NCBI GenBank assembly: GCA_905250025.1
Contig: CAJNOJ010000140.1
Coordinates: 203,341 to 267,340, forward strand
Direction: 5' to 3'
Origin: Adineta ricciae
Taxonomy: Eukaryota; Rotifera; Eurotatoria; Adinetida; Adinetidae
DNA: 64,000 nt
Shown: positions 1,741 through 64,000 of the stretch, piece after piece
How positions within the stretch are numbered: position 1 is the first letter of the stretch
Layout: every line of letters starts with the position of its first letter
Program-made: the position numbers and the translations under genes
Notes under the pieces: generated by a model
Told to the model about the DNA's origin: nothing
Seen by the model: the letters and a program-made list of their open reading frames with translations, nothing else
The model's database searches: none

Positions 1741-3633
<1,893 letters not shown>

Positions 3634-13028: not shown

Positions 13029-16000
13029 TCAATCATAAGCTACATTATACACTTCGTCGGAACTCAGTCGTTGTATAATTGAATCTAACTTCTGACGATC
13101 TTGATACGTAATTGTTGTGCATTGTGCATAGATAGTCGATGCTCTCTGGTAATATTCCAGTGCAATCCTATATTGTTTTAAGTATTCGTAACAAGCTCCA
13201 ATATTAAATAAACTTTTGCCTAAATCTTGATGATTAAACGGAAGACTTTTTTCACGTATAAAGAAACATTTTAATTCATAAACTAATGCAAGTTTATACT
13301 CATTTCGTGCGCGTTGTACTTCACTCAAATATGAAAGTGTATCGAGTATTGCTGAATGGTCGGAACTGAAATTAACTTCCCTGATCTGTAACGATTTTTC
13401 ATAGTACTCGATTGCTTGTTCATAATTCAACTTAATAAAACAAATAAAACCAATCCATTGTAAATAACGTGCAATTTGATTATGATTATTTGGATAATGT
13501 TCTTCATAAATGCTCAATGCTCGTTTATACGAGTCAAACGATTCATCATATTTACCTTGACGACTTAAACTACTTCCAATAAAACTAAGTATATTGGCAA
13601 TGTTTGAATGATGTGATGGATAGTATTTATCGTAAATATCTAACTGTTTACGATAATAATCGACAGCTTCGTCATATCTTCCTTGACTGTTACGAATATT
13701 CCCCATATAGTGAAAACTATCAGCGATATTCATATAGCCAAGGGGATAATGCTGTTGTCGAATATCCAACGCGCGTTGTTCATATTCAAATGCTTGATCG
13801 TATTTTTCTTGATGGTTCAAGCTCGTACCTATATTACTAAGAATTGTAGCGATGTCGGAGTATCGAAACGATGAATTTGTTTCATAGATATGCAATGCTT
13901 TTTTGTAGAAATCAATTGCTTCATTGTATTTGCCTTCGCTACTACGAATATTCCCCATATAGTTCAAACTCAATGCCATATGTGCATTGTCTGAATCGTA
14001 ATATTTCTTCTGAATCTGCAGAGCTTTCTCGTGATGTTGAAAAGCTTCATCGCATTTGCCGAGACGATATAATATTTTACCAACATCATTGAGACTCGTC
14101 GCGTAACTAATGTGTTCCGACGAATGATAGGTTTCATAGATTTTCATAGCACGTCGATGATAATCAAGGGCTTCGCCGTTATTCTTTTGATTACTCAAAA
14201 TATTGCCAATATTACTTAACGTATGTGCAATATTAACATTATCCGATGAATAATACGTCTTTTGCATGTCCAGTGCTTGTCGATAGTAAACCAGCGCATC
14301 AGGAAACTTCCGCTGTTTATTCAAATTATCGCCAATATAATTGAGATTAATAGCTAAATGTCCTGAATATGTGGGATAGTACATTTCTAACATTGTCAAA
14401 GCTCGTCGATGATGGTCAAGCGCTTCTTCGTATAAACGTTTTCCTCGAGAGAAGATATAACCAATATTATTCAAAATACAAACGTTATCTAAATGATCAG
14501 CTAACTGGTATTTTTCCTGCATGAACAATACTTGCTGATATAACTCTAAAGCTAAATCATAGTTTCCTTGTCCATATGTTATATTTCCAATATTACTCAA
14601 ACTTGTTGCTATATCGATGTGACCATGTGGATAAAACTTCTTTTGAATTAAAATTGCACGTTGAACTAATTCGAGTGCATCATGATGCTTTTTCTTCAGA
14701 TAGAGAATATTTCCCATACTATTGTAAGTTAACGCCAGATAGATATGATCGAATGGATAATATTTTTCATAAATCGATTTTGCTTCGTGATGATAAATCA
14801 AAGCTTCATCGTATTTACCTTGATCAATCAGAACATACCCAATATTTCTTACATTCGTCGCAATATCAATATGAAACGAATGGAAATATTTTTGACGAAT
14901 CGCTAATGCTTGTCGAAGATAATTCAATGCTTCATTGTATTTCAATTGTTGATAACGAACAAGACCAAGATTTTCCAAACATGTGGCAATGTGTGGATGA
15001 TCGAGTGACGGATGAATTTTCTTCCGTATAGCCAATGCATTTTGATGATACTCATAGGCTTGTTCATATTTGCCTTGTAAATGTAATACTTCACCTATAT
15101 CTGATAGAACACATGCCGATTCGTACGAAGAATTTGGTTGTCTGTTCAGTACTTGGTCATAAAATTTTCTTGCTTGAATCCAATCTCCTTTCCATCGATG
15201 AACTTGGCCAAGACAGTGTTGAATTGAAGATGAATCTTCTTGATCAAAGTCATTCAATAAATTTTCAAAATATGCTTGCGCTTGATCCCATTGGCACTGA
15301 TCGCAAATCAATCGTCCGAAAATAACTGGAATTGATAGATTTTCGAATAAGGCACGTGTATCATAAAGATACTTTTCGATTAATTCTCGTCCATGCTTGA
15401 CAACATCCATTTCTATTATCCAAACATTGTCCTCTTGAAAAATCTTTTCCAAATGAAATGTTGTATTGAAATGAAACAGGATTTGATTTTCTTTCGATAG
15501 GCGGATTTCAGCGAAAGTCGCGTAGTCTTTTGTTTCCTGGATATTACATTGAATTCGGAAAAGAACAGGAATGGAATCATCCAATCTGGAGAACTGCCGG
15601 CTTATGAATGGCCGCGAATAGGAGCATATGAGGAATTTTTTCATGGATATTAGTTGGCCTTGATTGTTGATGAATTTATCGAAATCACTTTTCGCTAAAT
15701 TCATTCGATGATAAACAACTAGGACATCAGTATTCGATTGTACGTACTGCTGATGTCGAGTATCGAGACATTGGATTAAATCACCGAGAAAATATCTTAT
15801 GGTGTAAAGTTCTTTGGTATTTTGTCCTTGCAGAGCGGTATCAATGAGTTTCCGAAGAAAAAAATTATTTAAATACCAATCTAAAGCGTCATCTGATTGA
15901 TATTTTCTTTTGAACTCATTTATAAACGCCGATAGACGATACGCATGCAGAAGCTGTTGTTTTGCATACTCGTTTCGTGATAATTGTAAAATCACATCAT

Positions 16001-16460
16001 GTAATAGTTGAATCCAAAGAAAATCACTGGGAAATTTTGATAAATCTTTCGTGGAATATTCGTTGTGATCGAAAAAGGTCCAAACATGAGACAGTCGATG
16101 AATAAAACTTAATTGATCGGCAATAGACGCATAGAGTGAATCGGAATCCGTATAAAATCCAATTATTTTCGTATATTGAAGAAACAAATACTCGGATTGA
16201 TCTTTTTCGGAAGAAAATATAAATATACAATGAATTTGTTCTAATGTATCAAGATAAGGTAGAATATGAAAGGCGTGTGACTTGGAAATAATTAGAAAGA
16301 GTTTCTCATCTTTATGCGATTGAATAAAACTTAAACATGTGTCTAATTTCGTTTGAAAAACAACATGATTCGTCAGATAATACAGACGTCTTTTCCATGC
16401 TTCAGTTTGATGATCAGAAGAAAAGGAAATAAGTGTAATCTTTGATAGTAATGTTGACAT
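13029..16460 (-). CDS. ART-like domain protein with kinesin-light-chain-type TPR array
   Basis: A single exon of 1143 residues. Residues 1-190 form an unassigned N-terminal alpha/beta region. Residues about 200-360 resemble a mono-ADP-ribosyltransferase fold (R-S-ExE type): WYLNNFFLRKLIDTAL, then KFLICSYSRPF at the usual FLSTS position, VLFRIQC, YATFAEIRLS, and ENQILFHFNTTFHLEKI. At the catalytic ExE site the sequence is E324-N-Q326, so the second (catalytic) Glu is Gln and activity is doubtful. From about residue 395 to the end there are about 18 tetratricopeptide repeats, most 42 residues long with the GKYDEAL/YYxxAL signature of kinesin light chain. TPR arrays bind partner proteins; I infer an intracellular scaffold or sensor. 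ART-TPR fusions are common in rotifers. The gene lacks introns. Confidence 0.82.
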   Translation of the reverse strand: MSTLLSKITLISFSSDHQTEAWKRRLYYLTNHVVFQTKLDTCLSFIQSHKDEKLFLIISKSHAFHILPYLDTLEQIHCIFIFSSEKDQSEYLFLQYTKIIGFYTDSDSLYASIADQLSFIHRLSHVWTFFDHNEYSTKDLSKFPSDFLWIQLLHDVILQLSRNEYAKQQLLHAYRLSAFINEFKRKYQSDDALDWYLNNFFLRKLIDTALQGQNTKELYTIRYFLGDLIQCLDTRHQQYVQSNTDVLVVYHRMNLAKSDFDKFINNQGQLISMKKFLICSYSRPFISRQFSRLDDSIPVLFRIQCNIQETKDYATFAEIRLSKENQILFHFNTTFHLEKIFQEDNVWIIEMDVVKHGRELIEKYLYDTRALFENLSIPVIFGRLICDQCQWDQAQAYFENLLNDFDQEDSSSIQHCLGQVHRWKGDWIQARKFYDQVLNRQPNSSYESACVLSDIGEVLHLQGKYEQAYEYHQNALAIRKKIHPSLDHPHIATCLENLGLVRYQQLKYNEALNYLRQALAIRQKYFHSFHIDIATNVRNIGYVLIDQGKYDEALIYHHEAKSIYEKYYPFDHIYLALTYNSMGNILYLKKKHHDALELVQRAILIQKKFYPHGHIDIATSLSNIGNITYGQGNYDLALELYQQVLFMQEKYQLADHLDNVCILNNIGYIFSRGKRLYEEALDHHRRALTMLEMYYPTYSGHLAINLNYIGDNLNKQRKFPDALVYYRQALDMQKTYYSSDNVNIAHTLSNIGNILSNQKNNGEALDYHRRAMKIYETYHSSEHISYATSLNDVGKILYRLGKCDEAFQHHEKALQIQKKYYDSDNAHMALSLNYMGNIRSSEGKYNEAIDFYKKALHIYETNSSFRYSDIATILSNIGTSLNHQEKYDQAFEYEQRALDIRQQHYPLGYMNIADSFHYMGNIRNSQGRYDEAVDYYRKQLDIYDKYYPSHHSNIANILSFIGSSLSRQGKYDESFDSYKRALSIYEEHYPNNHNQIARYLQWIGFICFIKLNYEQAIEYYEKSLQIREVNFSSDHSAILDTLSYLSEVQRARNEYKLALVYELKCFFIREKSLPFNHQDLGKSLFNIGACYEYLKQYRIALEYYQRASTIYAQCTTITYQDRQKLDSIIQRLSSDEVYNVAYD

Positions 16461-17680
16461 ATTACCAAGAACAATTCATGTTAGAAACTAGAAAAAAAGA
16501 AATCAAGGACGGGTTCGTTCTTATATTAATTGGATTGTTGATAATTGTTATTCGAACTAATGTTTTGGAAAATACAAGTTAATTTGAGAACGTCTGCTTT
16601 TCTAAATGTTGTTGATTTGTTATTTAAATAAATAAAAAATATCGAAGATAAAAAAACAACTTACAAGCAAAATATTGAAGTTACAGATGAGAATATGTAT
16701 ATACTCGATCATCATTTACCTATCTCACCTTGATATAATTGAAAATAAACGTGCTCGATTTTTTTTCTTCATTTCTAATCAACACGTTTAATAACATGCA
16801 GAAAGAGAAGCATCACCTTTACATGATAACAACAATATCATACACATAAAAAGAAAATTACGGTTTTTTTCTCATCGTTCTGCTTATATTTATCATCGGT
16901 TACTTTGTCGAGATAGTCTGCTGATGATTGAACAAATCATTTGACAAGAAAGACAAATGATTGTGGTTGTAGATCTTACCGCTCGAGCCTAATGGGATCA
17001 GTCGTATGTTTGTCTGCGATACGAATTCAAATAAAGCTTTTATCTCGTGTTCTTCATAATCTGGGTCGTCTTCCGTCAGCTGGACGACACAGCCGGCGTC
17101 AGGATAGAAACGCTATTTTGGTTGAAGAGTTTATTAATTACCTATCTTATATTCCAATACATAACAGTAATATAGTCTTCTTTTCACCACTCGTGATATC
17201 AACTGTGCTTTCATCTCTGCGTTGAATTGTTTGGATACATCTTCTGACTCATCGTCACACTCAGAAGTAACGAGTCTAGTTATAATGTGTCGTAGCGGAT
17301 TGAGAGAAAATTGAAATGTGAATTTGTCTTTATAGCAATTCAATTTAAGACTATTTTTGCATTTTAATCCTCTTTTCAACATCTAAGCTTCAAAGAGCAA
17401 GCAAATTGACATCATGCGATTTCCCTCGCAGAATTGTATACTGCATAAAAAATAAGATTTTTCTCTTCAATGCAATGCGTCGTTCTCTATGAAATCTATC
17501 GAATATCGGACGTTTGTTGGTAATCAACGTGTTCAGATACGCAATGATCATGACCGACTCCATGTTTATGTTGTTTCTCAACTAAAAGTACCCTAGTTTC
17601 TTCCTTTTATAAACAAAATCCTGATTTTAATCAAGTTCACGGTTGAAAAACCTTTATCTGTTTTCAAAAACAATTTTTTC
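16461..17680. other. Mostly non-coding; possible orphan exons
   Basis: Mainly AT-rich. On the minus strand, about 17105-16985 reads as a good coding stretch (YPDAGCVVQLTEDDPDYEEH continuing to LIPLGSSG, followed by GTAAG), and 17382-17134 is an open, charged frame. I could not join them with a frame-keeping splice or match them to a family. They may be remnants of one gene. Confidence 0.3.
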
Positions 17681-21664: not shown

Positions 21665-22012
21665 TTATGATCGTGGTACTGTCCAAATATTTTCCAATTG
21701 TTGTGCTTTCTCCCAAAAATCTATGCATTTACCGTTGCCACGACCGATAAAACCGCCCGATGGAGCACATATTTGATGACATTCTCCATCAAAAAGAGGA
21801 TTAAATCGATCGCAACAGCTACTTGTAGCTAGATAAGTTGTTTTACCACGATATATGTAGCTATCAATACTGATATATGGACTAAGACGAGGCGTAGAGT
21901 TGAATCCATCGATCATTTTACGAACACATTTTGGTATTTCAGTTGTTTTAGCTGTTGATGTTGAAAACATCACACTGACAATGCAAACAGTAACAAGAAT
22001 GACAGTTTTCAT
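21665..22012 (-). CDS. Small secreted cysteine-containing protein, DUF6970-like
   Basis: A 115-residue single-exon protein. I chose ATG 22012 because it places a clean signal peptide first (KTVILVTVCIVSVMFSTSTA). The mature part starts with KCVRKMIDGF, has a SYIYRGKTTYLATSSCCD strand pair, then GECHQICAPSGGFIGRGNGK followed by a CIDF turn, and ends with a W-containing strand. This order (Cys-helix, YxYxGKxxY, CCD, IC-P-GG-GxG-GKC-DF, I/LW) matches a family of small secreted or lipoprotein-like proteins I know mainly from Bacteroidota (DUF6970-like). The domain assignment is from memory and the function is unknown. A bacterial origin is plausible. Six cysteines could form three disulphides. 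Confidence 0.65.
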   Translation of the reverse strand: MKTVILVTVCIVSVMFSTSTAKTTEIPKCVRKMIDGFNSTPRLSPYISIDSYIYRGKTTYLATSSCCDRFNPLFDGECHQICAPSGGFIGRGNGKCIDFWEKAQQLENIWTVPRS

Positions 22013-24125
22013 ATTTGTTTTTTTTACAATGATGATGATGATCTGAAAATTTAAATCTTGAGGACAAAACACTACCTTTTCACATTCGCAATCGATATCA
22101 AATTTACGATCAAAAAGAATGCAGTAAAACTGTAGTCGTTATTTTATTTTACGTCGTCGTTATCTTTTTTTTTCGTTTATAACAGCCGTATGCATTTGAC
22201 TCTCATGATGAATCAAAACGACACAGTGTGAACAAACTCACAATTGCAATCCGAAAGCTTATTTACGTATGCAGATTTCGAAGTAATCGAGTAAAAAAAA
22301 AGTACTAATTGATTCTTACAGGTCGCAAATGAAGATATTCTTGTTCTTGGTATACTTTATGTTTATTTCGATGAATACAAGCATGAAAATAATCTGCTAT
22401 AACTACAGGCAAAATGCATGTGAAATGTTACATGTTGCGGCTTTAAGTTGAATCCAATCAATTTTGGAATTGGTATAGCATTGACAGATGGTTGTACTGA
22501 TCGAAATAATCTTTTACGTCCATCATTATTGCAGATCACTTGCAATGCTATTACAATGGCATTAAGATATTCAAACAAAGCAACGGATGTTCCGTAACTA
22601 TTATAAAAAGCCAGAGAACTGTTTTCGAATAAAAACATATCATTGAATCTTCTACAATAACAGAAACTGATCATGGAACAAATTTAGGTTTTACTCATTA
22701 GAATGGATATAAAATTGTCATTCGATCAAATACATGTGTGAATAACTATACATTTACCGATGACCATTCATTGACAACCGAGGTAATGGAACGCCCATGT
22801 ATAAAGCGAGCAGTGGCCATGTTTATGCAAGAGAAAAAGATCATTGGGACATCGTTTGTAGTAATTCTGTTTAAGATTGTGCGATCTCAAACAGAAGCAT
22901 GCAAAGAAATTCATTCTCGAAACGTCAGAGACTCCAAGTTACACAAATGAATGTTTACTATTTTATTTGTTGAAAATAAAAGTTAACAGGATTTTATTTC
23001 CGTTCTTGTAAGTATCCTACTTGAAAGAATAGTATACATTCCTACAGCATATCTATTTTCCAAGCATTACTAATTTTGAAAACTATTTTATCATAAAAAA
23101 AACTTCATGCAGTTTACCGTCTTCGACTTCACATCTGAAGTGGTTTTGACTAATATACATTTAATTCTTGACGAATTACAGATTTTGTGTTGAATATATT
23201 AAGCAATGTATAGTATCTTGTAATGTATTGAAAAAGTTGATCATATATTTTGATATGATTCATGTTAACTGCGTTGAAACACAGCAAGCACAAAAACGTC
23301 ATTTTTTGAATCATTATACAAATGCACTGAAGTCAAGTGATAGCGGAAGAACTGTCTTATACCCAGTGTGTTGATTTTTTGTAAAATTTTATCCAATTAT
23401 ATGCTTCACCTATGACGAATAAGTGCATTTTTATCCAATAAAACATGTAGAAAAACGAGATATGATCAACAACATAAATCTTTCGCTTAAATCAAACTTT
23501 CGTGTCTTCACCGAAGTGGTAAAGATAACAACAGTAGTCACATTGTTGTGAAAATAAAATAACAATGATATCGGCGAAAGATGTTTGAAAACAGCTTATT
23601 GAGTCAAAATCAACGAAGATGATTGAATATTGAATCAATTTGGTGATTTAACACATTTGTAATGTCAAAAGCCACTTTACGTACGAATATATGTGTATGC
23701 GTCACTAACGTATAATACGATACTTTATGACTTTTTCTATAACATGAAATCTTTGTTATCACCATAACTCATACTTCCTTTTTTTCCCTTTCAGGACAAT
23801 TTTCTCTCACAGGATAAATTTCGTTAACCTTATTTCAGTATAATCAAAGCAATCCTGGCGAAATATGTGATAGTACTGTTTATTTAATAATGACAAACGT
23901 GCCCTTTCAGGAAATTTTAGATTATTCTGTGAAAAAAGTCATAATCCACTTTCGTTTGACTATAGCTTGGAAAATTCGCAGAAAAGCATACAATGGTATG
24001 TTGATATGATGCAAACACGCGCATATATATATACACTTCTTTTCTCATCGTCACACAACCCAATTCTACTCTCTCCTGTTATTTACAAGAACTTCTACAC
24101 ATAAACAATACTAAATTCGGTTACA
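22013..24125. other. Gene-poor spacer of 2.1 kb
   Basis: Contains a 103-codon minus-strand frame with an ATG (22674-22363) that I cannot assign, plus several shorter frames. No repeat structure was recognised. The last 100 nt hold the candidate promoter of the first defensin-like gene. Confidence 0.35.
24021..24036 (+). promoter_or_regulatory. TATA-like element of defensin-like gene 1
   Basis: GCATATATATATACAC lies about 95 nt before the ATG at 24126, at a reasonable distance for a TATA box with a short leader. Position and composition only. Confidence 0.4.
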
Positions 24126-24537
24126 ATGCATCTCAAATTCATAATTTTAATTGCCATAATGATCCCATTTCTAATATTGGAAACCCAAGCTTGGCAATTG
24201 AGTTTTATAACACCGTCAAGTAGTAAGATCTTAGATAATTGTCATTCGTCTAAAATCGGTAAGTTTCTTCTCGTTGTAGAGATATCAAAGAACAAGAAAA
24301 AATGGAATTATTCATATATGTCTTATCGCAATGGTGAAAAGAAAAGGACGAGGCATGCAAATATCAAATAACGTGATATAGAAATAGATTTAAACAAAGA
24401 ATACTCATCGATTTTGGTGTAAAACAAAAAATCGAGAGGCGCAAACGAACTGTGTATTGCAATGCAGCTTTAGTGGCCATCGCAGCGGACATTGTCAACC
24501 GCACAAAGATCATTTTCGGTGTGTTTGTTCTGGCTGA
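24126..24537 (+). CDS. CS-alpha-beta defensin-like secreted peptide (copy 1)
   Basis: Two exons, 24126-24258 and 24437-24537, 77 residues; intron of 178 nt in phase 1. The open frame running through the intron to 24371 hides the true C-terminus. Exon 1 encodes a signal peptide (HLKFIILIAIMIPFLILETQA) and a short pro-segment with the first cysteine. Exon 2 (frame of EAQTNCVLQCSF) supplies the other five. The six cysteines are spaced C-x10-C-x3-C-x9-C-x8-C-x1-C, with CxxxC, GxC and CxC elements as in invertebrate and plant defensins; the GHC corresponds to the canonical GxC. Such peptides are usually secreted and antimicrobial. The gene at 29812 has the same architecture and identical spacing, which supports this splice model. 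Confidence 0.72.
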
Positions 24538-26217
24538 TTAGTTTCAAAATCTTATTAATCTGCATCTTCTCAAAGCAATCTCAGATAATAAATAACCAAG
24601 AGTTGACGTTATGAAGCTTAACCCCGTGTGTGTATAGTGTAAATTGTTTGATTTCAATGATTGGCATCCAGTAAGTCCTTCGAACAGAGGGAAGCATATG
24701 ACTGTGATCAAATAAAGTTGTGTGACTTTCCTGTTACATCGTAAGATGTAATAATAAAAGAAAACTTTTCGTACAAGAATCATGTTTTCTTGTTGTTCCA
24801 TTCTTATGATTTATTTTGTACCCTTTCTTCTATATGTGGACAGGAATCTGTCTTTATTTTGTTACTATGAATCAAATAAATCATTACTATACAAATGTCT
24901 TACTGATTGTGAAATAAGCTTCGATCGAGATGAAAACTGAAACCGTATCCTTGTTTTCGTCAAAGTTTCGCTTTGATTAAGTTTACAAGAAACGAAATGA
25001 AGCGATTAAATTATTACACCAATGAACACTCTCTGTACTCATATCGATGACTGATGTAATTTCTACTGACCGTTGTGGATCTGTCGCATAACGGCAGTGT
25101 TCAGTTGCCATAAGAAGCAAACTTCATGAGTTTTAAACAACAAAAGTAATAAATGAAACAACGAAAATATTTTCTCAGAAAATTTGCATTATGATATGCT
25201 CTTAAAAAGATAACAAATTCAAATCTGATTCGTCAGAACATACTTTTATCTCAAACTAATAAAATGATTCAATGTGATTCAACGAAAGATGGTATGAATG
25301 AATACGTCTAAAAGATAATATTCATTCTACATATCGATACAAGTGTTCGTTATATCAGCATGGATTTTTACTTCGATACTCCTCGGCACCAGATTCAGTT
25401 ACTGTTGCACGCTTTCATCAGAATTTCTGCAAAGCTCATATGAAGTAGATAAGATGATATTTTATATTTGGTTAATACGCTTCATTTGATATTCTGATGA
25501 AAGGATTCTAAAATAGATGGTAAGAAGTGTTCATAATGTGTTTTGTCATATAAACACACAGAACCAAAAAATAAAATAGTTTGATTGTCATGAATTTACT
25601 GTTTTACCAAACAGTTACCGTTGTCATAATAATCAATTCATTAGGATGTCCTAGATGTTCTTACAAGGAAATAATCTTACTTTGAAAAACAAAGCTAATC
25701 GATATATTGGGCAGTATACTCATATACGAGAAAGAGCAGAAAATCAAAGTGTTTTTAATATTCCTTACTATCGAAACGCTAGATGCAAGTTAATCTTCAA
25801 CTGTGAAAAAGGTCGTCAAGAATGAGTATTTCTCAGAATTGTCATCATTGAAAAGAAACTAAATGTGTTTTTGTTGTTGACATTCTACTCGTCAGCCTCG
25901 TTTTGTGAAACTGAGTGTATACGAATCGATATGATTGTATCATTATACAGCTTTTGACATACCAGTAATCTGCTCAATGAGAAAAATCGCGTACAAGGGT
26001 GGGTTATGCGAGATTCATATTTGTGTCAGTGCAGTTAGACGTGTATTTAAAGTTGGCTACTATGACTACAACGAGTTGATCTTCACAAATGAGTCACACA
26101 CGTCTTGACAATACAGTTCATGAATCATTATTCGATGCTTTTCAAGTATCAGTTCGGTCGTAACATTTAGGTGCAAATTCTTATAAAACAGATATTTTTG
26201 TCCTTGATTAAGATAGA
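24538..26217. other. Gene-poor spacer of 1.7 kb
   Basis: AT-rich. The only sizeable frame (24801-24544, minus) shows no family features and overlaps the defensin 3' flank. Nothing else is recognised. Confidence 0.4.
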
Positions 26218-27367
26218 ATGAATCATACAACGACGATTCTTCGTGCCAGTGATAGTACTAGTGATATTCTGACGACGATGCCTTACATAGTTAACATTTT
26301 CATTGGTACATTTTTGGTCGTGATGGGAAACATTGGTTGTATTGGTAATGTGATTGTATATCAATCATCAATATTTTACAATCAAGCTTATGCAAAATAT
26401 CTGTTGGCAGAAACAATCTCCGATTTCTTTGTAATCAACCTTGTACTTCTCACACGAGTGATCGAAAAAGGTTACGGAATTCCAGTATATACTACTCGCT
26501 ACGATTTTTTATGCAGAATTCGACAGACTGGTTCGTATTATTTTGTTCTGACATCATTTTCATACTATACACTAGCAACACTCGATCGAATTTTATCCGC
26601 ACAACGTTCCAATTGTAAGTAAATACTACTTTTTATATTCGAAAACAACGGTGAACTGCATAATTGAGATATGTGCACACATAATTACTTGGCCACGTTT
26701 TCTATAACTATAAATTAAATATCACCCTTAAAACGTGCGACTCACTCTGTTCATTTTAGGGCTTCGTAAATGGAGCAATCGTATTTCTCTGGCTTATAAG
26801 TTAATCGTTGCATGCGCCATCATATGGCTCCTACTCACTGGTCACCGACTTTTCATATATGCATTGGTCCATGGCAAATGTAATCCTCAACTTGCAGTTT
26901 ATGATCAGATCAACAATTATATAGAAGCGATTGTAATGGAACTTGGCCCACTAGTGATCGTATTTACACTTGCATATCTTTTGAAAAGATCTCTTCGACA
27001 CATTATTCAGCGGCCAGCTGCTAGCATTACTATTGGAAAACACTCTCGAGTGCGTCAAATCGATTCACAAATTACATTAATGTTACTGCTTCAATCCATA
27101 GTAGCAATCATATCTTTTCTCCCATATGGAATAGAAACACTTTACGATCATATAACTGAAACATGGTATAAAACGTCTTTACAACTTGCCATCGAAAAAA
27201 TCATCGGTCAAATCACGCATACATTATTATATACATTTTCTGCTTCTGGTTTTCACATATCAATTATCTCTAGTCATGGGTTTCGTCGTGAAATTAAACG
27301 TATCTTATGCAGGAAAAAGATACATCCTTTGCCAACCATACCGACTTTTACAGCTAGAATACAATAA
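26218..27367 (+). CDS. Rhodopsin-like (class A) G-protein-coupled receptor
   Basis: Two exons, 26218-26614 and 26760-27367, 334 residues; the 145-nt intron is in phase 1. Asn-rich glycosylatable N-terminus (NHTTT). TM1 VVMGNIGCIGNVIVYQS carries the conserved GN. TM2 LLAETISDFFVINLVLL carries the LAxxD-like Asp. C-terminal of TM3 is LDRILSAQ, that is DRI in place of DRY. Then follow TM4 (LIVACAIIWLLLTG), TM5 (ELGPLVIVFTLAYLL), TM6 (LMLLLQSIVAIISFLPYG) and a divergent TM7 (ITHTLLYTFSASGFHISI) without NPxxY. The tail is short and basic. Ligand unknown; such divergent class A receptors form large expanded families in rotifers. It lies between the two defensin-like genes on the same strand, with no known functional link. 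Confidence 0.85.
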
Positions 27368-29811
27368 AAGTTCAGAATATTAATTATTTTGATTCTAAAG
27401 AAAATATATCTTCTCATTAGTCTTATTCATTCCGAAAAAAAATAAACAAACTTATGCAGCTTAGCTTAGGAAATAGTTGATTGTCTCTAGATAAAGTAGT
27501 ATCTTGCAAATAAGCGCAACTATCTTTATATGCTTTAAGATATTCATCAACTGCATCTGATTTAGTCAAGAACAAGCAATCTATGAGAAAATCGGAGCGA
27601 CGCAATGAAAATGATGAGTATGCGTGCGCCCTACAGTATTTTCTCATTCATATTCACGCTCAAGAAAGTCCTTCACTACATATCCTTCATAAAATGGAAA
27701 CAACAGCTAATTATAGACACGATAATTTAATCTTTCATGCATCATTGTTAACCATATTGATTTTTCAGAGGTTTTTCCAATGTATATAAATTAGATCATT
27801 CACGAGAACAAGGTATGTGCTATTGCACTATTTATGATTTAGACCGCAGGAGAGAACGTACATAGCAGCCATAATCTGGAGTTTTATGGGCCATTCGTCG
27901 ATGAATGAACAAGTTCAATCAAATTAACGACTCGAATTGTTCTACTTCCACATGAAAAGCACATACTTTGCACAAATATTTCGTGATAATACTAAATGAC
28001 AAAAACATTGCCGCTTATCCGATATGACTGATATTTAGACTATGTTGTGTCAATATTACTTCCCTTCTATGTTGGAAACTTTGATGAGAGGAGCAGCATC
28101 TGTTTATTTCTATATCTGCATACGACGACTACAAACATCATTCGTGTAATACGAAAACAGAAAAAAACGATGTGTGCCTTAGGTAAAGTTAGCAGTACAT
28201 TTGAGTATTTATTGTCTGGGTTCGCCTGAGAACTTGTGTTGAGTCTAAAAATGATCGCGCTGAACGCTAAATTGAATTATCTATTAAATGATGTCGTTTT
28301 CGGCATGGACTATCGAGAAAAAAATCAGTCGCACCCACACTCAGATCCTCGCCTGCGATGATATCCTCGTGACTTACATCATTGGATAGAGAATTCGATT
28401 CTGAATATAGCACAGCCAATGTGAGAGGCTCAGGACAGGTTCTTCAGCGAATTCGGACAATAAATACTCGAACGCAGTGTTAACTTCACTTAGGTCGATA
28501 TGTGATGTATTTCAATATTTTACGTCTATTCTGAGTCATAGACATTTTCATTTCGACGAAATGTGCGATTATTAGGATACCACTATTACGGCTTGTTCCT
28601 ACGATTATATGATATATCTACAGTAATTGTTGAAAAGACAACGTTGACGAGATCAATGATGTCCAGAAACTCAACACAAGTAAATAATAATTACAGTAAA
28701 CATATGGAGCATCGTGGTTGTTATTGATCTGCTACATGAGAATTATTCAGATATCGTGTGTTTTCTCTTATTTCTGTCAATTAAGGGCCAGCTGAAATGA
28801 TTTCGGATTTCTAAAAAAATATTTTCGCATCTAGCTAAACTGATTTGCCGAAAACATCAACTACAAAACTTCATAAACCACCCAAGTTAATGATTTCGAC
28901 CCTCGGACTCATGGGATTCCAGCAGAAACCTGAATGAGAAGACAACGGCTCCTTTCAATTCTCGGAGAGAACCGGATGAAGTCATGTGCTGGATCCGTTC
29001 AGAGAATTCCTACTGTATCAAGTCCGTACTTCTCTACATGTACGTTAGCAACTGACACAAGTTAAAGTTACGATAAAGACCGCTGAGTTCTTTCGCGCGA
29101 TTCTCGGTTACATTGATCAGAGCTGGAAATTGAATGGTATAGTATTCAGAATGACAATAGTTTTACCAATAACTTACTTGCTAATCAATCTTATCATCCG
29201 TGAATACGAATGAATGTTGTGACCGCTTGCATGACCTTGCAATATTCATAAATGTGAACAGAGTTAACTGTATTGCTTCTTGCTGATGTCTGTCTGTCTT
29301 ACTAAACAGTTCTATAATGCTCACAGGCAATGGTGTTATGTAGAAATATAAAAAATAGAATATCTCGAAATGCTTATGCAGTAAAATGAGAGAAACTCAC
29401 GTATTGAAACCATAACGAACGTTTGTCCTTTCTTATCGAATTAATGAATAAATCTGCTTGTAGTAGGTAGGTTTTTTCCTTTTTCGAATAGCTGAGAAAT
29501 AATATCAACAATATGATAAGAAAATCACGTGAATAATCATGACGACAGAATATTTAATTTAAACTGACTTTGCGTGGATGAAACTTTGAGAGTACGGTAG
29601 TTTACTTCCTATCCATCCTCTGTGGGAAAGATCAGAAAATTGGCAAGATGCTTCTCCAACAGTATATAAGAGCCGTAGATGCACTCTGAAAAAAAACATT
29701 CTATTTGCTACTCAAAACTACAAGAAACCTTCGATATTATCGAAAACAAGTAAGAAATTACTCGAATGACGGATGAAAAAGCTTATTGAAACGAGATTAT
29801 CTTAAGTGTTT
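27368..29811. other. Gene-poor spacer of 2.4 kb
   Basis: Short frames only. Around 28870-29110 base composition is less AT-rich than the surroundings, without a coding pattern; it may be an old inserted element. Otherwise nothing recognised. Confidence 0.35.
29661..29672 (+). promoter_or_regulatory. TATA-like element of defensin-like gene 2
   Basis: AGTATATAAGAG is a good TATA box about 140 nt before the ATG at 29812. A GTAAG soon after (from about 29750), followed by an AG just before the ATG, suggests a short 5' UTR intron. Confidence 0.5.
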
Positions 29812-30126
29812 ATGAAAAATTCTAAGCAATTTATTTTGGTATGTTTAATTGGTACTCTATTTATGGCAGCGCAAGCTATGAACCAACTCAATGCACACGC
29901 AGATCACAGTAAGAATGGAGAGTTTTAATAAACGCAAACCAGGATGATGTATGACTGTATAGAAATGAACATGGGAAATGACATACAATTGGACCTTCCG
30001 ATTAAGTACTGTAAAAGTATGAGTCATCTGGAGGATAGCAAATGCAGTCACTGGTGTGTATGGCACAAGCATAGGTTCGGCAGATGTGAAGAATATAAAA
30101 ATAAGATCATATGTGTTTGTGCTTAA
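29812..30126 (+). CDS. CS-alpha-beta defensin-like secreted peptide (copy 2)
   Basis: Two exons, 29812-29908 and 29963-30126, 86 residues; the 54-nt intron is in phase 1. An alternative acceptor at 29942 also keeps frame but would leave a 34-nt intron. Exon 1 encodes a signal peptide (KNSKQFILVCLIGTLFMAAQA). The mature region has six cysteines spaced C-x10-C-x3-C-x9-C-x8-C-x1-C: KYCKSMSHLEDSKCSHWC, then FGRC and CVC at the C-terminus, ending one residue later. GRC is the canonical GxC of the CS-alpha-beta fold. It shares cysteine spacing, intron phase and strand with the gene at 24126 while the intervening residues differ, so they look like diverged paralogues. Expected role: secreted antimicrobial peptide; not demonstrated. 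Confidence 0.8.
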
Positions 30127-31099
30127 TTAATCGACGATAATCGCTATTGTCCAATTAATCGAGAAATTGTATAAAAATATTTTTCCATGCCGTTGTTTAA
30201 CCAACTAATAAAGGTTTTCTCTTACAAATTTCTACGAATATATGCACTGGATTTTCTGGTATATGACAGAGAAAATCATATGCTCAAATTTATGGATGAT
30301 TCCATGTGAACATATAATATATTCTCGCAGACGTCAAAGTCGAACGAGAGCAAGATAATTACTAATTATATAATGAAAAAAGAATATACAGAAGTAGAGA
30401 TTGAAGCGTGTGTAGAATATGATGTGGACTAAAAAAATTACGATTTGCAGGTATTTCTTCTCTCTTTATTAATATAAAGATACCGGCTTTTCAAACTCAT
30501 TTCGGTTTGAAGTGTGAGGGTGGATGAAGGTGGAGGGTGAGGGTGAGGACGAGATAATTTTAATTTTTGGTGTTGAAAAGCTTTTCCCCTAATTTTATAG
30601 AGAAAAAGGTTTTTCGAGATTTTTGCTTTCGAAATTTTTGTTTTCGAGATTTTGTCAGCAATTCCACCTAACATATGAATCCTAATTTCGACTTAGTGTA
30701 CTGGCGTAGCCTAGCCTTGACTTGTATGTATGTGCATTCTCTCTCACAACGATGTCAACCAACGGAATTACGTGATATTCTACCGCATCATCAATGTCCT
30801 CGAAACTCTTCAATCAATGCAAACATAAACAGTAGCTCGTGACCATTGTTCCATTTTGAGCACACACACATTCGATGAGAACGTTTGTCAGTACCTATCA
30901 GGCAATCAAATTCATTGTTCTTCTCATTCTCTAACATTTTTTCATCGTTACTCTCACAAAGACAACATTTTCCTCTTGTTCTCTCTCTCTCTCATCAATT
31001 GCAAAAAGTCGTTACTATCATCTTCGGTTTCTCCCACACTTAATCTTTTGCGGTTAACTATATGCACACTGCATAACGACGCCTACATTGAAGACAAAG
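30127..31099. other. Intergenic with G-rich tract
   Basis: Upstream region of the large receptor. It includes a plus-strand G-rich run (about 30508-30550, repeated GGGTG/GGTGG) able to form a quadruplex and a short CT microsatellite near 30980-30993. No gene seen. Confidence 0.4.
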
Positions 31100-62049: not shown

Positions 62050-63201
62050 TTTTTTTTTTGGTAACATAGCTTTATTTCGTGTAACATTACTGCATAAGCC
62101 ATAAATTAACGGTTGGTTGTTACACGAAAGCTGGGCACAAAAAATGAAAGAAGACAGGACCCATGACGTATGTCTTTTGTCCTAGAAGAAAAAGATGAGA
62201 AAATAAACACGGAGAAAATATGGTTTGCGTATGGTAGGGGTTTGCGTCTGTAATGTGTCATGATAAGAAAATTTAAACGGTTGCAGTTTAATCGGTAAAT
62301 GGAGTGAATTTTTCTCGTATTAGGTATAAGAACGAGTGAAAAATTTGGTAGTGGTGAAAGAGTCAGTAAACACGTTGATTGGATTCGATATTTCATATGG
62401 AAAAGAGAAAACGGTTTAGCTGGAAACGAAAGAATCAGCATATATATTGCATACTTTACATATAGTATATGGAAGACAACAGAATTAGCTAGCGCGAAAG
62501 AATCGTTAGTTACGTTGAACCGATTCCATATTAAATATGAAAAGAAGACAGAACGAGAAAAACGATCGAAAGAATAATCAGCTGGATTGAATTGGTTTTA
62601 TATTGTATACGTTGTTGCATATATACCAAACGCTTCGTACGTTATTCCGATATAACGATTTTTGTATAGATTCGGGCGACACAAAAATGATCGAGTTTAT
62701 CGACGCTTCTGTATAATACGACTTTGGTGATTTCTTTAAAATTTTTTCTAGTATGTGTACTAGATGATTTCTAAGCGTAATGTCGCTGTTATTTGCCGCT
62801 GCTCGAACTGCTTGTTTAAGAAGTCCTACTGCATGGCCCTTGATGTTGGGGATGTTGCTGATCTGATGGATGTATTTGACCGATGTGTATATGGGTAAAC
62901 CTAATGCAGCTCTGATTGCTTTGTTCTGCATGATTTGTAAGCGATCCCATATTTTTTGATCGGCTGTGAGCAGAACAGGATAGCCGTACATGATGACTGT
63001 GCGTACAATTGATTCGAAGACATTTATCATCGTCTTGTTATTTGGTTCTTGAGCTGATCTCGATAGATATAGAAGAAGGCCGATCCGAGGAGCTATCTTG
63101 GCTTCAATATGTTCGAGATGCATCATTCTTGACATTCTTTCTTCAAGCAATTTCGAATTCAAATTTTCTTTTGTAGAAATTTCATCTGTTTCAATGTCCA
63201 T
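62050..63201 (-). mobile_element. 5'-truncated non-LTR retrotransposon (LINE), end of ORF2, 3' UTR and poly(A)
   Basis: The minus-strand frame 63201-62578 (207 codons) has the C-terminal post-reverse-transcriptase pattern of jockey/CR1/I-type ORF2: AKIAPRIGLLLYLSR, TVIMYGYPVLLTADQKIWDR, LQIMQNKAIRAALGLPIYTS and a helical tail. No reverse-transcriptase catalytic motif is present, so the copy is 5'-truncated. About 500 nt of 3' untranslated sequence follow, ending in an A10 run (T-run 62050-62059 on plus). The frame is intact, which suggests a fairly young insertion. Its 5' end overlaps by eight bases the ATG of the glycosyltransferase gene on the other strand, so it sits in that gene's promoter area. 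Confidence 0.75.
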
Positions 63202-64000
63202 ATCACAAACAAACCGTGCATGTCAATTCATAGGTTTACTGGGCTTGTTGATTATTATTGTTTACTTGGCCGCCGATCATGGACTTCTATCGCATGTGAA
63301 GCCGATTCCTACAGTACAAATGCAATCAAAATCAGTTGTGATGAGACCACGAGCATATATCATTACTGCAGATTGTTATTCAGCACGTTTTAATGCAACC
63401 AAGCAAAATGTTGAACGTGCATTTCCTAACTTTTTCGAAGTCGTATGCTTTCTAGCGATTCCATTAAACGATTCTCGAATATTATTTCCTTCGTCGGCGA
63501 CTCTATTCCGAAAATGGGCATCCAATCTGCTAGCTTTTGTTGAGCTTTGGACCTACGAAATTCCTAAACATAGCGCTCAGAATGACTTGCAATGGTCTTT
63601 TATTTTCGAAGATGATGTGAACTTTTACGATCTATCGAAAGTATTCTTGAAGAATTATATCAGCCCTTTACAAGAAATGATGTCACATCCTGATGTTCAC
63701 TTGAAAGATGGGTTCTTCTATTTAGGCATATGTGATCCTAAATACAACAATGATACTCAAACGATTGTATTGAAAGATACAAACAATAGTGTGATAAGTA
63801 AACGGAATTATGGATATTGTCTTCATGCAACGGCAATAACAGCGAAGCGATCTCGAATATTCTGGGGTGAAATTGCCTCCTATCGTCCCAATGCGAACGA
63901 AAAGTCCCTAGATTATCAATTACGCGAATTCAGTATGCGAAGTAAAAGTTATTTTTATACATTCGGAAGTAACTTACACTATCCACCTGGAACTGGACAT
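63194..64000 (+). CDS. Type II membrane glycosyltransferase-like protein, 3' partial
   Basis: Open from the ATG at 63194 to the window end (269 codons, no stop). A short N-terminus (SISQTNRACQ) precedes an anchor (FIGLLGLLIIIVYLAA). The lumenal part starts RAYIITADCYSARFNATKQN, where substrate-binding strands of GT25-like enzymes lie, then FPNFFEVVCFLAIPL, and WSFIFEDDVNFYDLS, an E-D-D metal-binding motif typical of GT25-type galactosyl/glucosyltransferases. Next is FFYLGICDPKYNND, then YGYCLHATAITAKRS with LDYQLREFS, resembling the later HxYxxS/DxxL region of that family. I infer Golgi glycan synthesis, substrate unknown. A LINE fragment lies against the start on the opposite strand. Confidence 0.72.
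   Translation, partial: MSISQTNRACQFIGLLGLLIIIVYLAADHGLLSHVKPIPTVQMQSKSVVMRPRAYIITADCYSARFNATKQNVERAFPNFFEVVCFLAIPLNDSRILFPSSATLFRKWASNLLAFVELWTYEIPKHSAQNDLQWSFIFEDDVNFYDLSKVFLKNYISPLQEMMSHPDVHLKDGFFYLGICDPKYNNDTQTIVLKDTNNSVISKRNYGYCLHATAITAKRSRIFWGEIASYRPNANEKSLDYQLREFSMRSKSYFYTFGSNLHYPPGTGH

Follow-up and report, generated by a model that had tools for sequence, protein, structure and literature searches.

The window analysed here is a 64,000-nt stretch of contig C140 that carries two short genes, named gene A and gene B, in each of which a putative signal-peptide leader lies ahead of a small cysteine-rich core. Both genes contain six cysteines in the order C-x10-C-x3-C-x9-C-x8-C-x1-C (10-3-9-8-1), with a GxC and a CxC motif. 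A six-frame scan of the window for this strict core, uninterrupted and free of other cysteines, finds it in exactly two places, at 24418 and 30010, both on the + strand. None of 150 order-2 Markov simulated windows contains the core, and none contains even its last five cysteines (0/150 in each case), which supports the claim of an earlier note on this DNA that the shared spacing is unlikely to be chance; the pattern was defined post hoc from genes A and B themselves, and the simulation speaks only to chance alone. The same note described the residues between the cysteines as almost wholly different, which is fair at 29% identity with the cysteines counted in; the two genes are nevertheless paralogues.

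Gene B consists of two exons. Exon 1 (29812..29908, + strand) runs for 97 nt from the ATG to a GTAAGA donor and encodes the putative signal peptide MKNSKQFILVCLIGTLFMAAQA followed by about 10 residues. A phase-1 intron of 54 nt (29909..29962, +; GTAAGA...TGTATAG) leads to exon 2 (29963..30126, +), which holds the entire six-cysteine core in 10-3-9-8-1 spacing, with the first cysteine at 30010 and the stop codon ending at 30126. This splice is the sole open model in a narrow scan and the best of the four listed in a wider one; the other three (for example 29852/29963 and 29922/30048) start from weaker donors, and in two the core is incomplete. The product is 86 residues long, with a hydrophobic leader that ends in AQA. 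Both leaders were judged by hydropathy, with best 11-residue means of 2.87 in gene B and 3.18 in gene A, and by eye they end with AQA before M and TQA before W, respectively.

A second copy of gene B lies on contig C143, colinear and in the same order, with the intron donor and acceptor kept; the C140 and C143 segments align at ~86-92% in their main blocks. The intron differs from that of the C143 copy at 10 of 54 sites. Exon 2 shows 6 nonsynonymous and 11 synonymous changes (dN, nonsynonymous divergence, 0.046; dS, synonymous divergence, 0.663; w, their ratio, 0.07; Fisher p 1.1e-6). Gene B is a conserved protein-coding gene with exon 2 under purifying selection: its reality follows from the phase-1 intron, the colinear second copy, the selection on exon 2, and the existence of paralogues with the same exon layout. 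A TATA-like box, TATATAA (29663..29669, +), lies 149 nt upstream of the ATG, and 150 nt upstream of it in the C143 copy; it is a consensus match only, and a further TATA match occurs at 29347. Downstream, AATAAA (30207..30212, +) is a candidate poly(A) signal by motif match only.

Genes A and B belong to a larger set. The search of their own genome covered 130.5 Mb in 1033 contigs, and only the best candidates were scored, so that the 22 loci found are a lower bound. The 10-3-9-8-1 core occurs at 13 of them: genes A and B, their two copies on C143 (C143A and C143B), C171, C349, C705, C170, C54, two loci on C602 and two on C280. All 13 aligned loci have the six cysteines as C..CxxxC..C..CxC and keep the spacing, and the glycine of GxC, the gamma-core motif, is invariant (13/13; G30/C32 in the alignment). 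The distance from ATG to the GT donor is 97 nt in 9/9 aligned genes, with GTAAGA in eight and GTATGA in C171. A single exon, preceded by a phase-1 intron, holds the whole mature domain in gene B, C143B, C349, C602b, C280a, and C280b, and a phase-1 intron between leader and core is seen by eye in C705 and C170. A 97-nt phase-1 model also exists for C171, where it ranks fourth by a crude splice score, and the C54 core sits within one open frame. C602a shows no leader exon and looks damaged. Adjoining its core exon on the reverse strand of C602 (L022), at ~3316-3540, is a fold-back element of 225 bp whose 24-bp inverted ends are nearly perfect. Net charge, computed for 12 of the 13 family cores, ranges from +3 to +11. 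Between C280a and C280b there are nine nonsynonymous changes and one synonymous, an excess that is not significant (p 0.46). Matches of gene A on C15 (E 0.016) and C9 (E 0.034) were judged spurious from their translations. Prokaryote genomes, scanned once with the gene B core, gave 36 pattern matches and 0 relatives.

The fold predicted for the cores of genes A and B is that of cysteine-stabilised alpha-beta (CS-alpha-beta) peptides. The gene B model (pLDDT, predicted local distance difference test, 82.7; pTM, predicted template-modelling score, 0.60) has a helix at residues 21-33 and strands at 39-44 and 47-52; the model of the gene A core (pLDDT 82.9, pTM 0.58) has a helix at 12-24 and strands at 29-35 and 38-44. 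Both models thus consist of one helix and two strands, with the helix predicted to pack on the sheet, so that the outcome which the earlier note named as refuting, a structure lacking a helix with a sheet, did not occur. In a structure search, the first row plainly of another fold appears at rank 24, and scorpion toxins are among the matches. When the family profile was compared with solved structures, plectasin came top (E 2.9e-4), followed by pine, nematode, mite, and insect defensin-type chains. Among the 13 exon-2 peptides, four match the arthropod defensin family PF01097 at E<=1, the best at 0.0066. The E-values and Z of the structure search are weak, however; genes A and B fall short of the curated PF01097 cut-off and are not listed up to E 10; and neither gene reaches a Pfam cut-off for any family. 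Two phmmer matches of gene B were set aside as chance: one to the epidermal growth factor receptor (best E 2.3e-4), which is built from two stretches of 11 bits each within a single tandem chain, over query residues 9-62, and one to BTLA (E 0.07).

Gene A retains both parts of the family layout, and the exon join between them is in doubt. Its first exon, taken to the family donor (24126..24222, +), is a putative signal-peptide leader of 97 nt with GTAAGA at the same place (nt 97) as that of gene B; this donor (24223..24228, +) is kept in gene A and in C143A. The core exon (24394..24537, +) is an open frame that carries the six-cysteine core in 10-3-9-8-1 spacing, uninterrupted from the first cysteine codon at 24418 (CKTKNREAQTNCVLQC...). 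The context of that cysteine is FWC, and YRC in C143A. In the relatives with resolved structure, the first cysteine and indeed all six lie in exon 2, and the gene A core is likewise arranged. In a MAFFT alignment the family acceptor falls at 24279/24280 of gene A, with ~90 nt extra before the core, and the frame entered there hits a stop (ending 24371) ahead of the first cysteine. Eighteen single-intron models ending in the core were compared, and five of them stay open in gene A and C143A alike. Three of these five have five cysteines, the first being lost; a fourth has six, its first standing 35 residues ahead of the second (hand count); and the last, 24276/24400, in phase 0 with GTAGAG...AACAAAG as its sites, holds the whole family core together with a seventh cysteine.

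The substitutions between gene A and C143A give no sign of constraint. There are 26 nonsynonymous and four synonymous coding changes, and neutrality is not rejected (p 0.34); in the core, dN/dS is about 0.9. Exon divergence is 12-15% against 13% in the flanks. In the leader, 13 nonsynonymous changes stand beside one synonymous, an excess that is not significant (p 0.29). After 16 changes to the core, the six cysteines, GxC, and the frame are all intact, an outcome with a chance of ~6% without selection. In the gene A stretch 24223-24399, only 9 of 177 sites differ, which places this interval at the 10th percentile of the region's windows (binomial p 0.009 against the mean); no element is claimed there.

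A core that is kept while coding constraint is undetectable leaves two options for gene A: a copy in decay, or one that is diversifying with changed splicing. Decay is the likeliest reading, at a probability that stays somewhat under one half. Gene A would then be a pseudogene in which leader and core each remain open after their in-frame joining was lost, which suits the core dN/dS, the stop reached from the MAFFT-placed acceptor through the extra ~90 nt, and the five shared models, each of which loses, displaces, or adds a cysteine. Two observations speak the other way: the core has acquired no stop, cysteine loss, or GxC loss in its 16 changes, and the 24276/24400 model, open in both copies with the whole core, makes a working transcript possible. 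The latter leads to a second reading, possible and clearly less probable than decay, in which gene A still functions through altered splicing, for example 24276/24400, and encodes the family core with an extra cysteine contributed by a lengthened leader exon. The intact core frame and the openness of this model in both copies fit such a gene, but its GTAGAG and AACAAAG sites look poor, its phase is 0 where that of the family is 1, and coding constraint is not detected.

A third arrangement is the one drawn in the earlier note, in which gene A is a working gene spliced 24259/24437 with its first cysteine in exon 1. That splice yields an open frame of 77 residues in phase 1, with a GTAAGT donor (24259..24264, +) and 10-3-9-8-1 spacing. 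The first cysteine and the intron so assigned are probably wrong, on sequence comparison, because the donor is lost in the C143 copy (TTAAGT in the alignment), gene A and C143A both retain the family donor at nt 97, and a six-cysteine core is already present in exon 2, as in the resolved relatives. Moreover, the acceptor AATCGAG has no pyrimidine tract, the coding changes carry no mark of constraint, and the model is absent from the five that are open in both copies. We therefore judge it unlikely, behind both decay and re-splicing. The note's claim of one phase-1 intron between leader and core accordingly stands for gene B (29909-29962) and is not supported for gene A as it was drawn; its claim of a six-cysteine 10-3-9-8-1 domain in each gene survives for both, with the first cysteine of gene A probably in exon 2.

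Taken together, the results make it rather probable that genes A and B are paralogues within an animal-genome family of small secreted CS-alpha-beta peptides, similar to invertebrate defensins, for which a role as cationic innate-immune effectors is suggested. The proposal of a CS-alpha-beta peptide family is supported by 13 loci with the same core, the predicted folds, and the defensin profile match; that it is antimicrobial is a further step that we infer, and we read the family as lineage-specific and probably antimicrobial, with a functional gene B and a drifting or re-spliced gene A. In the mechanism we envisage, the peptide would be secreted and its signal, perhaps with an N-terminal pro-part, removed. 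Three disulphides, joining cysteines 1-4, 2-5, and 3-6, would lock the helix onto the two-stranded sheet; this is the usual CS-alpha-beta pairing. The cationic peptide might then bind microbial envelopes and so act as an innate-immune effector. Plectasin and oyster defensins offer an analogy for the target, which may be lipid II or another precursor of the cell wall. Lipid II is a guess because genes A and B lack the Phe-Gly through which plectasin makes contact.

A non-antimicrobial role, in which the peptides would address animal targets (as ion-channel ligands or in an offensive secretion) or act as internal signals, is improbable on present evidence. The fold class is shared with scorpion toxins, which occur among the structure matches, and Tarr (PMC5116183) describes six-cysteine CS-alpha-beta sequences of insect spacing as not sortable into toxins and antimicrobials by sequence, so that sequence cannot separate the two uses. 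Against this, antimicrobial defensins lead the sequence-profile matches, and the number of genes, the neighbouring copies, and the cationic charge suit an immune arsenal. The weakest alternative, that genes A and B are chance open frames with a like cysteine spacing, can draw on their shortness and on the ease with which small proteins are over-called, but its probability is negligible given the absence of even the last five cysteines from the simulated windows, the same core at thirteen loci, and the purifying selection on gene B, which together with the simulation led us to reject a chance origin for gene B outright.

Comparison with known defensins places the family close to several groups. 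Plectasin, its best solved-structure profile match, shares the CS-alpha-beta six-cysteine core, and its N-terminus is resembled by the family members C170 (FGCNG) and C705 (HGCNG). The family differs in a longer C4-C5 loop, and gene B (KYCKS) lacks a Gly before the first cysteine. The Phe-Gly that precedes the first cysteine of plectasin is replaced in gene B (KYC) and gene A (FWC), and FGC occurs only in C170 among the 13. Antibacterial fungal and invertebrate defensins are reported to bind lipid II in a study that names F2, G3, C4, and C37 as the plectasin contacts (PMC3418506), of which only the cysteines are common to gene B. The likeness to arthropod defensins (PF01097) extends to the cysteine order, CxxxC, GxC, CxC, a mostly cationic charge, and a phase-1 intron followed by a single exon for the mature domain, an arrangement reported for mollusc, arthropod, and scorpion defensin genes (PMC6435467). 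The CxxHC given in the same source is found in neither gene A nor gene B. The insect-defensin consensus C-X5-16-C-X3-C-X9-10-C-X4-7-C-X1-C, as one paper states it (PMC3234185), fits four of the loops, while the C4-C5 loop is 8 against 4-7; that length falls inside the wider range of 4-9 given elsewhere (PMC6435467). Nematode ABF/ASABF peptides, the mite protein Blo t 19, and plant gamma-thionins have the same fold class and turn up in the profile and structure searches of this family. Most of them have more cysteines or longer tails.

Beyond the 10-3-9-8-1 family, at least nine further loci in the genome show other CS-alpha-beta-like cysteine patterns: C458, C352, C182, and two each on C12, C167, and C682. 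Ten genome matches to PF01097 were obtained, and the pattern is CS-alpha-beta-like in five (C458, two on C167, two on C682) and not in those on C68, C47, C330, C177, and C105. At C458:52280-52519 (- strand; L040, L074) lies a Defensin_2 gene of arthropod type that scores 50 bits to PF01097. It shares the leader, the six cysteines, and the CS-alpha-beta class with the family but differs in being one unspliced open frame with 16-3-9-5-1 spacing (hand count), and so represents a separate class in the same genome. It has a TATA-like stretch upstream, its sole genome match at E<=10 is to itself, and the neighbouring frames look animal by eye. Two peptides at C12:594847-594969 (L026) and 622564-622686 (L025) score as gamma-thionins above the Pfam cut-off and have a long acidic pro-region. 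Two protein pairs, at C167:82306-82404 and 99281-99379 and at C682:25945-26019 and 29166-29240 (L041, L042, L048, L049), seem by eye to have two CS-alpha-beta-like domains each.

The wider significance depends on the identity of the animal. TGTGGG arrays occur on 10 contigs; the control used was a rotation of the same repeat and hence no control. TGTGGG is reported as the telomeric repeat of A. vaga, with support in other rotifers, in a source that also describes degenerate tetraploidy in all bdelloids examined (PMC7943196). The ~86-92% colinearity of C140 and C143 is consistent with such tetraploidy, short of proof. We put at about even the chance that a bdelloid-type asexual animal possesses a large, so far unreported CS-alpha-beta immune arsenal that spans several classes and numbers 22 loci or more. 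One of these classes would be the lineage-specific 10-3-9-8-1 family, marked by its long C4-C5 loop; within it gene B would stay constant, and the adjacent gene A would alter the way its exons are joined and either diversify or be lost. If the genome is bdelloid, a spiralian line would have kept and multiplied CS-alpha-beta peptides. Among the open-licence papers listed, at the level of titles and the beginnings of abstracts, we found no report of CS-alpha-beta peptides of rotifers, and little on antimicrobial peptides of rotifers themselves. One review gives big defensins as missing from rotifer genomes (PMC7203481), and a flatworm study states that CS-alpha-beta peptides were not found there (PMC10414684). 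Bdelloids facing a fungus are described as using horizontally acquired biosynthetic genes (PMC11258130), beside which the present peptides, if the genome is bdelloid, would be candidate effectors. The family is easily missed, with an exon 1 of 97 nt and Pfam cut-offs that genes A and B do not reach.

Other features of the window lie apart from the two genes. On the - strand, 13029-16475 is a single open frame of 1148 residues with many TPR_12/TPR_10 repeats, 21665-22138 encodes a secreted-looking DUF6970 protein (Pfam, 99.7 bits), and 62578-63222 is an open frame that by eye resembles the end of a reverse transcriptase of the long interspersed nuclear element (LINE) type.

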